A stretch of DNA of 16,134 nt. It comes from Flavobacterium sp. Lineage in GTDB: Bacteria; Bacteroidota; Bacteroidia; Flavobacteriales; Flavobacteriaceae. This document shows, piece after piece, positions 14,395-16,134 of the stretch; the first letter of the stretch is position 1; each line of letters opens with the position of its first letter. The stretch spans positions 1-16,134 of the forward strand of contig JAHEBK010000008.1 in NCBI GenBank assembly GCA_024642295.1, read 5' to 3'. A program made the position numbers and the translations under genes. The notes beneath the pieces are model-generated. The model ran no database searches, was not told the origin of the DNA, and worked only from the letters and a program-made list of their open reading frames with translations.

Positions 14395-14994
14395 CTACTT
14401 TTGACGGCTTTTTAACACTTTAATCACATCATTTATTTTGAAGCCTTTCGCTTGTAAAAGCATCAAATAGTGGAATAGTAAATCAGCACTTTCGCTCAAA
14501 AATAACTCGTCGTTATTATCTTTAGCTTCGATAACAACTTCAACAGCTTCTTCACCTACTTTTTGAGCTACTTTATTGATTCCTTTAGCAAAAAGAGAAG
14601 CAACATAACTTTTCTCCGAGTCAGCATTTTCGATTCTAGATTGAATGGTCGCTTCTAAATCAGAGATAAAACCATAATTTGGTTCGTTTGGTGTTTGCCA
14701 ACAAGTATCCGCTCCTGTATGACAAGTTGGACCTACAGGTTGTACTTGAATTAATAGCGTGTCCTCATCACAATCATTTTTAACATCAACTAAATTCAAA
14801 AAGTTTCCACTTTCTTCTCCTTTAGTCCATAGTCTTTGCTTAGAACGGCTGAAAAATGTTACTTTACCTGTTTCAATTGTTTTTTGATGCGCCTCGGCAT
14901 TCATATACCCTAGCATCAACACATTTTTGGTTTCGCTATCTTGAATAATGGCAGGAATTAATCCGTGTGCCAATCTTGAAAAATCTATGTCCAT
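14395..14994 (-). CDS. hisIE: Bifunctional phosphoribosyl-AMP cyclohydrolase / phosphoribosyl-ATP pyrophosphatase
   Basis: Catalyses steps 2 and 3 of histidine synthesis: HisE hydrolyses PR-ATP to PR-AMP and HisI opens the adenine ring. The HisI part (1-105) shows LMLGYMNAEA (26-35), FFSRSKQRLWTKGE (47-60), metal ligands DCDED (74-78) and zinc Cys91 and Cys98 in TCHTGADTCW. The HisE part (about 110-199) shows KVGEEAVEVVIEAK (145-158) and ESADLLFHYLML (168-179), the helix-borne Glu/Asp metal residues. Length and fusion order are standard for Bacteroidetes. It is the last gene of the operon, followed by a hairpin terminator; a 44-base spacer with an AAAGT iteration separates it from hisF. Confidence 0.97.
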   Translation of the reverse strand: MDIDFSRLAHGLIPAIIQDSETKNVLMLGYMNAEAHQKTIETGKVTFFSRSKQRLWTKGEESGNFLNLVDVKNDCDEDTLLIQVQPVGPTCHTGADTCWQTPNEPNYGFISDLEATIQSRIENADSEKSYVASLFAKGINKVAQKVGEEAVEVVIEAKDNNDELFLSESADLLFHYLMLLQAKGFKINDVIKVLKSRQK

Positions 14995-15000
14995 ATTTTT

Positions 15001-15032
15001 AGTCTAAAGTTGCAAAGTCAAAAGTCTTAAAG
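15001..15032. repeat. AAAGT iteration between hisF and hisIE
   Basis: AAAGT occurs at 15006-15010, 15014-15018 and 15021-15025, and AAAGA at 15029-15033, so units start every 7-8 bases; AGTC stands at both 15001-15004 and 15023-15026. On the coding strand it reads as repeated GACTTT/ACTTT. It fills most of the spacer between hisF and hisIE and looks like a short simple repeat. Similar ACTTT-rich spacers occur, from memory, in other flavobacteria. Confidence 0.5.
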
Positions 15033-15038
15033 ATAAAA

Positions 15039-15794
15039 CTAGATTCTGACTTCTATTTTATTATTTTTTAATTCCTTTTTCAAGGCTTTAATTTCGATTT
15101 CTTTAAAGTGAAAAACACTTGCTGCTAAGGCTGCATCAGCTTTTCCATCGATAAAAGTATCCGCAAAATGTTGCATATTCCCCGCTCCACCGGAAGCTAT
15201 AATTGGGATGTTCACTAAGCTTGATAATTTAGCCAAAGCCTCATTAGCAAAACCATTTTTGGTTCCGTCATGATTCATCGAAGTAAACAAGATTTCGCCT
15301 GCACCTCTTTGCTCCACTTCTTGAGCCCAATCAAATAATTTTATTTCAGTTGGTACTTTTCCACCAACTAAATGCACGATCCATTCACCATCAATTTGCT
15401 TGGCATCAATCGCCACTACTACACATTGACTTCCAAATTTTTGTGCCAAATCATTAATTAACTGCGGATTTTTTACCGCTGAAGAATTGATAGATACTTT
15501 ATCGGCTCCATTTTGCAACAAAACTTCAACGTCAGAAACAGCCGAAATTCCACCACCTACGGTAAACGGAATATTAATCGTAGCTGCTACTTTTCGAACT
15601 AAATCTACTAAAGTGCGTCGGCGTTCTTCTGTTGCAGATATGTCTAAAAACACCAATTCATCCGCTCCTTCATCCGAATATATTTTGGCTAATTCCACAG
15701 GATCACCAGCATCACGCAAATCTACAAAATTTACGCCTTTGACAGTTCTTCCATTTTTAATATCTAAGCAGGGTATGATTCTTTTTGTAAGCAT
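15039..15794 (-). CDS. hisF: Imidazole glycerol phosphate synthase, cyclase subunit
   Basis: HisF uses ammonia from HisH to turn PRFAR into imidazole glycerol phosphate and AICAR. The 251-residue TIM barrel begins [12 protein letters not shown], with catalytic Asp11 in CLDI and Asp130 in VVVAIDAK, both at the canonical positions. Phosphate-binding FTVGGGIS is at 77-84, and IIASGGAGN is followed by [19 protein letters not shown] near the C-terminus. Nothing is missing. It lies between hisA (98 bases upstream) and hisIE (44 bases downstream). Both gaps are filled by repeat-like sequence and are longer than usual for a tight operon. Confidence 0.97.
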
Positions 15795-15807: not shown

Positions 15808-15885
15808 CACAGAGATTCACAGAGTTTTCACAGAGATACACAAAAATCTTAGCGAATCTTTGTGCTTTCTTTGTGAGTCTTTGCG
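15808..15885. repeat. Phased inverted repeat between hisA and hisF
   Basis: CACAGAG starts at 15808, 15818 and 15829; the near-complement CTTTGTG starts at 15858 and 15869, with CTTTGCG at 15879. The unit spacings are 10 and 11 on the left and 11 and 10 on the right, so the arms mirror each other. The 28-base arms (15808-15835 and 15858-15885) pair at 19 of 28 positions around a 22-base centre. It fills almost the whole 98-base gap between the two genes. It resembles CACAGAG/CTTTGTG-type intergenic repeats I recall from Bacteroidetes genomes. Transcribed, it would form a long hairpin inside the his mRNA. Confidence 0.75.
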
Positions 15886-15892
15886 AAACAAT

Positions 15893-16134
15893 CTATTTCT
15901 TTAAAATGTAATCCTCTAGTTGTTTCATCGAAATCCTTCCTTCATAAATTGCTTTTCCTATAATCGTTCCTTCGCAACCTATTTCAGCTAATTTAGGCAA
16001 TTCATCAAAAGTAGAAATTCCTCCTGAAGCGATTAATTTAATCTCGCCTTTCGACTCCGCTCGAGGTGACACACTCGAAGTGACTGTACATTGATTGATG
16101 AGTTTCTTATACAAATCAAAACTTGGGCCTTCAA
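15893..16134 (-). CDS. hisA: HisA (ProFAR isomerase), C-terminal part, with internal insertion
   Basis: This is the C-terminal 80 residues of the (beta-alpha)8 isomerase that converts ProFAR to PRFAR in histidine synthesis; the gene runs out of the window upstream. From the edge it reads [14 protein letters not shown] (end of strand 6 loop and helix 6), then [11 protein letters not shown] (strand 7 with the phosphate-binding GG), [21 protein letters not shown] (helix 7, strand 8 and its phosphate loop) and a terminal helix LEDYILKK. Between helix 6 and strand 7 stand about 14 extra residues, [14 protein letters not shown], which ordinary HisA lacks. They are encoded by the palindromic segment at 16046-16087 and keep the frame. 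A start in TTG at 16112 would be wrong: the protein clearly continues upstream. The conserved phosphate-binding elements after the insertion are intact, so the enzyme is probably still active. Confidence 0.9.
16046..16087. repeat. Palindrome-containing element inserted in frame within hisA
   Basis: This 42-base stretch is richer in G+C than its surroundings. It holds TCGA three times (16051, 16061, 16075), outer arms TTCGA (16050-16054) and TCGAA (16075-16079), and a central CTCGAG (16060-16065). TTCGACTCCGCTC followed by GTGACAC resembles, from memory, the very common dispersed intergenic repeat of Flavobacterium genomes. Its length is a multiple of three, so it adds 14 codons to hisA without a stop. 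Exact borders are inferred from the expected HisA alignment. Confidence 0.65.

Follow-up and report, generated by a model that had tools for sequence, protein, structure and literature searches.

Palindromic repeats captured as protein sequence in the α6-β7 loop of HisA, an insertion hot spot in Flavobacteriaceae

The α6-β7 loop of HisA is a hot spot which has been invaded repeatedly by related palindromes across the Flavobacteriaceae. In the window, by which we mean the whole stretch of DNA analysed (16,134 nucleotides, the entire contig G000:C361 of a Flavobacterium sp. draft genome of 2.2 Mb in 425 contigs, 68.9% complete), the loop carries a segment of 42 bases at positions 16046-16087 on the minus strand. 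We consider it very probable (roughly 0.88) that this segment belongs to a dispersed family of REP-like palindromes, that it landed in hisA, where it was apparently re-invaded by a second copy, and that it is translated as a disordered surface loop. The members of the family have a 5' foot (TGTCA) followed by a stem-loop of about 20 bases.

The hisA segment and its repeat family

Translation of positions 15889-16132 confirms what the sequence-only reading had proposed, namely that the 42 bases, described there as TCGA-rich with inverted arms, are in frame and code for 14 residues, which lie in the α6-β7 loop. The same reading took all 14 as added: they are indeed 14 in-frame residues, but the net gain is 13 when compared with empty Flavobacterium HisA proteins (11 residues between SFDLY and LIASGG), with a few of the loop residues replaced. 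The gene itself (15896-16132, minus strand) is truncated where the contig stops, at 16134; its C-terminal 79 codons are present and the first two thirds are missing. The corresponding fragment matches TIGR00007 with an E-value of 3.4e-10 and 39.9 bits, below the whole-protein cut-off of 228.95 because it is a fragment. Thirty full-length relatives from the family align throughout outside the loop, and many of the residues flanking it are invariant. That hisA ends 47 bases past the insert, in a draft as incomplete and fragmented as this one, could raise the suspicion of an assembly or binning artefact at the contig end. This can be practically dismissed: the nearest HisA found (genome G153) is 90% identical over the window's part, complete (254 residues) and has the same arrangement, which indicates that the insert is not an edge artefact, while genome G105 also has this arrangement in a complete ORF and related inserts in named strains agree.

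Downstream of hisA are hisF (15039-15794, minus strand; named from its sequence) and hisIE (14395-14994, minus strand; the name being a reading of the ORF). The hisA-hisF spacer (15808-15888) contains short near-repeats (cacagagattcacagag, cacagagatacacaaaa, tttgtgagtctttgcgaaac) which look like another flavobacterial intergenic repeat family, and the hisF-hisIE spacer (15000-15032, agtctaaagttgcaaagtcaaaagtcttaaag) is repeat-like in appearance.

Alignment of the segment with copies found elsewhere gives the element unit TGTCA-NN-TCGAGCGNAGTCGA-GA-N'N'. The copy in the window, TGTCA-CC-TCGAGCGGAGTCGA-AA-GG at 16047-16071 (minus strand), was delimited from its sequence, the genomic copies, the family consensus and the stem complementarity, and is one base off the core TCGAGCGNAGTCGAG in its tail (GAA for GAG). 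The exact core occurs 23 times elsewhere in the 2.2-Mb draft genome and its reversed control not once, which bears out the proposal that a repeat family has been captured as protein sequence. A repeat search within the window alone did not show the palindrome family, because the window holds only one place with an element. Twelve of 14 genomes examined from the genus contain exact cores, 114 in total (reversed control 0 in all 14), although 12 of the 14 were picked because their hisA carries the element. No exact core was found in G117 and G050, and G056 has a single exact copy, located in hisA. Among 80 distinct copies from 12 genomes, 60 have the TGTCA head (the next commonest, TGTCG, accounts for 4), and the outer stem bases NN/N'N' are complementary in 56, against a mean of 9.9 for shuffled tails. 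The predicted single-strand DNA fold of the copy in the window does not exceed shuffled controls in stability (z -0.14), so the evidence for a hairpin comes from the complementarity across copies and not from the folding energy of this copy. The element is present as a stem-loop, in singles and in inverted dimers, and inverted pairs are also found inside hisA (L294, L301 and L302). Read from its codons, the core is open in all six frames, except for one when the variable base is T; with nearly all frames open, capture as coding sequence is easy. A tandem array of the TCGAG palindrome, with a spacing of 27 and 54 bases and apparently outside genes, was seen at locus L212 (G070:C160).

The 42-base segment does not look like a single element. 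It had been described as one palindromic segment, of which the dispersed palindrome stands, but it apparently comprises two nested elements: the full copy at 16047-16071 is flanked on its two sides by what would be the arms of an older element. The putative left arm (AGTCACTTCGAG, consensus TGTCACTTCGAG) is at 16074-16085 on the minus strand, and is suggested by comparing L059 and L061, where the older element is uninterrupted, with the interrupted L030 and L031. The putative right arm (CGAGATTA, 16039-16046, minus strand) codes for part of the EIK preceding the β7 strand, and thus extends outside 16046-16087; it was recognised from the uninterrupted L038 and L043 (...GTCGAGATTAAA here). The outermost bases of the two arms are mismatched in the window and matched in L031. 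Uninterrupted forms of the older element occur in other species (L038, with ...TGTCAAATCGAGCGGAGTCGAGATTAAA, as well as L059 and L061). A comparison of the uninterrupted L043 and L044 with the interrupted L045 and L040 clearly shows nesting at one and the same core.

In the sampled genomes most copies are outside long ORFs, in line with the intergenic location that had been supposed: of 96 distinct copies fetched from 12 of the sampled genomes, 64 are outside ORFs of 150 codons and 32 inside. Twenty-eight of the 32 lie away from ORF ends: hisA accounts for 5 of these, an ORF that is probably spurious (L184) for 1, and other ORFs for 22. A search for copies inside other genes found them in frame in MetH, PurL and UvrA (NCBIfam matches) and in PurK, ArgS, a SpoU methylase, KdtA, HemW, a GSCFA protein and a putative cyclase (Pfam match and reading); one of the nine proteins in the Pfam search had no Pfam match. 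The comparison with orthologues outside hisA covers HemW and UvrA. In the HemW proteins of two genomes, different copies occupy two loops, each of which is empty in the other genome. The UvrA of the window's genome (L168, G000:C28, about 1.7 kb) has the element reversed and in frame, with 30 residues between RI and IDRI compared to 26 or 29 in five readable relatives (30 loci, its own included). At L193, L194 and L204 (genomes G198 and G045), a protein which reads as VirE/BT4734-like and primase-type has two palindrome types (VTSSxVEM and HTEPVEV) at one place, and L193 has a third copy (SPRAESRG) in this protein.

The position of the insert between helix 6 and strand 7, put forward from the DNA alone, is in agreement with the structural model of F. 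kayseriense HisA, where residues 193-219 are the only stretch under pLDDT 50 (overall mean 84.1) and lie between a helix (180-189) and a strand (223-227). The loop insert is therefore predicted by the model to be disordered. The α-β loops of a (β/α)8 barrel belong to its stability face, away from the side with the active site, and judging from the sequences and the model HisA appears to tolerate the insert. The net gains observed (e.g. +6, +7 and +13 residues) are not equal to one element, which indicates that most events include local sequence loss and are not clean insertions; from these gains it would seem that local bases were lost, or that later trimming restored frame and length.

The HisA loop as a hot spot

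The loops were read from 220 loci, of which 215 were readable and 206 distinct as proteins (L053, L140, L143, L144 and the window itself, L029, were dropped). A recognisable core is present in the loop of 42 of the 206, compared to 2 of 206 with one in the remaining hisA sequence (138.6 kb), for core patterns which were selected after inspecting these loops. Thirty of the 42 cores are exact, 11 have one mismatch and 1 has two. The remaining proteins comprise 109 with a short loop (10 to 13 residues), 23 with a ECSNSSSGQSIK-like loop and 32 with a long loop in which no core was recognised; the latter two classes count 20 and 35 if the rule is changed slightly. The inserted residues are thus not general in related HisA proteins, in line with the sequence-only reading, and SSxSPRAxS-like forms were seen, besides the window, only in L030 and L031, with variants in L033 and L067.

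The cores are of five types, for which the labels A to E are our own (A and D being close); three sense frames are used, and reversed cores are also found. Going by the record titles for organism names, the type with core TCGAGCGNAGTCGA is found in F. omnivorum, F. pectinovorum, F. flabelliforme and F. kayseriense, and in Mesonia and Kordia; GAGCGAAGCGAAGAAT is found in Tamlana nanhaiensis, GAGCGCAGTCGAAG in Aequorivita, and CTGAGCCTGTCGAAGG, together with its mirror, in a Dokdonia draft genome, while TCGACAGAGCAAAGCGA is a further type. They are translated as SSGVE, RAESR or FERSR, or in reverse as STAL. The loop of F. kayseriense HisA reaches 40 residues with repeated copies. A conserved loop of 16-18 residues, ECSNSSSGQSIK, with no palindrome left, was observed in 23 rows in the range L272-L315; in this group of Flavobacteriaceae, it may be an old element that has been tamed.

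How common the inserts are depends on the set considered. In 80 named loci (938 kb), which are the best 80 of 569 matches to an insert-bearing HisA query and therefore biased towards carriers, 18 loci have an exact core in the loop of hisA, and there are 13 further places with one, 2 of these in ORFs of at least 100 codons. In the genus sample, 131 of 199 genomes have a HisA match, and 13 of these 131, the window's included, have a recognisable core; 30 loops and 20 odd rows were read (L140, L143 and L144 among them gave no HisA loop), 9 partial rows were left out, and the others were classed as short from the length of the match. In the family sample, 254 of 299 genomes matched, and a recognisable core is present in 14 among the 150 matches listed (13 by scan and the window by eye). 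Sixty-one of the 150, own genome included, were longer or broken, and 60 were fetched; direct reading of 30 of the other rows listed showed short loops of 11-13 residues, and match length served to classify those left. Beyond the family, none of the 53 HisA-type best matches among those listed for the phylum sample (E-value up to 1e-15, one per genome) was lengthened by more than one codon, as judged by match length; this sample has 148 genomes, 12 of them without a match.

Recurrence, mechanism and alternative explanations

To follow the recurrence, 204 HisA proteins were stripped of the loop and used to build a tree with FastTree. The distribution of palindrome versus none needs 32 changes, gains and losses pooled, and at least 10 of these are forced by branches with support of at least 95, a value reached by 27 of the 201 inner branches. 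Sister genomes can be unlike in the presence or type of palindrome: L273 (type A) and L276 (type E) are joined as sister rows at 99, as are L246 (short) and L265 (type D), and this comparison suggests that several insertions are younger than the species splits. The main competing explanation for the distribution would be a single ancient insertion in the ancestor of Flavobacteriaceae, inherited vertically and followed by divergence or loss, with no hot spot. The form KKIINQC..VTSS, common to L030, L061 and L081, fits such a history, and the fixed ECSNSSSGQSIK-like loop of 23 rows could be an old element. It is nevertheless improbable, considering that types, frames and directions vary in close genomes (L273 and L276; L108 with type B and L267 with type D; L107 in reverse), that 30 of the 42 cores match the repeat consensus exactly, and that at least 10 changes are forced on the tree. 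Retention of the palindromes for a function at the RNA or DNA level, such as an mRNA hairpin, pausing or processing in the his operon, would account for their recurrence at one place in one operon and for the hairpin complementarity conserved in the family. It is about equally hard to accept, as 109 of the 206 HisA rows have a short loop and 55 long loops are without a core, the folding energy of the window copy is not unusual, and the same elements are also found in unrelated genes.

Repeated invasion of the loop could be explained as follows. The elements would move, or be copied by recombination, into many places, and those insertions in coding sequence would survive which keep the frame and fall in a loop tolerant of length change, as the HisA α6-β7 loop on the stability face would be. 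With less confidence, existing elements could serve as landing sites for new ones, so that a loop once hit would be hit again. Tolerance alone may be insufficient to explain repeated hits on one loop, and a preference for hairpins, earlier copies included, would be a testable addition. A more specific form of site-directed insertion, in which a transposase or recombination system prefers a sequence, a small hairpin at the hisA spot, or earlier copies, is a tentative explanation. In 38 of the 42 cases a 5-mer resembling the head (TGTCA itself or any of seven variants) begins at loop nucleotides 17-25, and in 29 of 42 it is strict TGTCA, 7 times at nucleotide 18, a position at which TGT codes for cysteine; new copies are found inside old ones; and enzymes of the RAYT type have single-stranded hairpins as their substrates, according to the available part of PMC6006769. 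The junctions, however, are at several offsets and phases (17, 18, 20, 22, 23, 25), no motif of the empty site is established, and no cognate transposase was found in the search of 15 genomes or among the 30 Y1_Tnp loci inspected. Another candidate is a TGTC target which was already there, at a run of Glu-Cys-Pro codons; cysteine is present there in only 8 of the 109 short loops, and as inverted pairs have TGTCA at both ends, TGTCA looks like the element's own part.

The genomes searched for Y1_Tnp were 11 carriers, one empty genome (G117) and G294, G301 and G264. It was found in 10 of the 15; those lacking a match include three carriers, namely G000 (a draft only 69% complete), G012 and G067. 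Three of the 30 Y1_Tnp loci hold any core (allowing up to one mismatch), and only in L337 (genome G131) is it close to the gene: here a RAYT-like gene is preceded, at a distance of about 220 bases, by a TCGAG inverted pair (about 1657-1700), the sole such case. In the flanks of the RAYT-like genes inspected, other palindromes or none were evident. A role of RAYT as the mover is thus not supported, L337 being one weak lead. By eye, the RAYT-like genes of Flavobacterium at L329, L332, L334 and L341 are flanked by palindromes of the GCAAAGTCTCCGACTTTG and CACGAATCCTTTCGTG types.

Going beyond repeated capture in a tolerant loop, the α6-β7 loop could be a self-perpetuating landing pad, where insertion favours single-stranded hairpins, its own earlier copies included, with a turnover of type after type and one copy tamed into the ECSNSSSGQSIK motif in a large clade. 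We regard this as a speculative possibility, with the odds rather against it.

Relation to known repeats and significance

Flavobacteriaceae are mostly free-living. The element described here works like the Rickettsia palindromic elements (RPE), being a palindromic repeat in frame inside protein genes; its host is Flavobacterium-like, and it is not classed as an RPE. Both are palindromic repeats in frame inside housekeeping proteins, and both come in several families; unlike the RPE, which are about 150 bp, belong to an intracellular genus and sit in frame in Rickettsia genes (available part of PMC10969869), the units here are of about 25-30 bases and in Flavobacteriaceae, and one loop of one enzyme is hit repeatedly, with units nested in units. 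The suggestion that this would be a Bacteroidetes counterpart of the Rickettsia phenomenon is supported, with the amendment that intragenic REPs are known beyond Rickettsia and that palindromes of several types share this hot spot across the family.

As for the GTAG REPs associated with RAYTs, the likeness is that both are short, imperfect palindromes which have a conserved foot at the 5' end and are often paired in inverted orientation, and the difference is that the GTAG tag is absent here (80 distinct copies). The CGTC-tagged repeats, treated in a 2013 paper reportedly by Di Nocera, are also short stem-loops, one end of which bears a tetranucleotide tag, and occur as singles and dimers and in part within genes; the tag here is TGTC(A) and not CGTC, and the elements are therefore not filed with that group despite the common architecture. 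No report of inserts of this kind in Flavobacteriaceae or HisA was found among the open-access papers searched. According to the part of PMC3733652 (2013) available, several bacteria have GTAG and CGTC repeats within genes (uvrA is one such gene), and CGTC repeats, including RPE-4 and RPE-6, are reported from five phyla, Bacteroidetes among them, and said to be without a dedicated transposase. Recurrence at the same site is mentioned in that part only for recB of two Xanthomonas species, and the terms Flavobacteri*, HisA and histidine are absent from the main text as available (PMC3733652). What is already known is thus that REPs and RPEs occur inside genes, in Rickettsia and beyond (PMC3733652, as far as the available part goes). 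The host family, the small self-nesting unit, and the repeated colonisation of one loop of a housekeeping enzyme by several types are new.

These observations extend protein-coding palindromes from Rickettsia and scattered reports of REPs to a large bacterial family. For annotation, they imply that peptides like VTSSGVEK, SPRAESRG or HFERSREA, when met in a flavobacterial protein, come from the translation of a repeat. The many different insertions in one loop of a well-studied TIM-barrel enzyme also amount to a natural experiment, in which the tolerance, decay and possible taming of selfish DNA within a protein are traceable by sequence and testable by complementation. Should the loop be a self-perpetuating landing pad, selfish palindromes would constitute a lasting supply of new loop sequence in a core enzyme.
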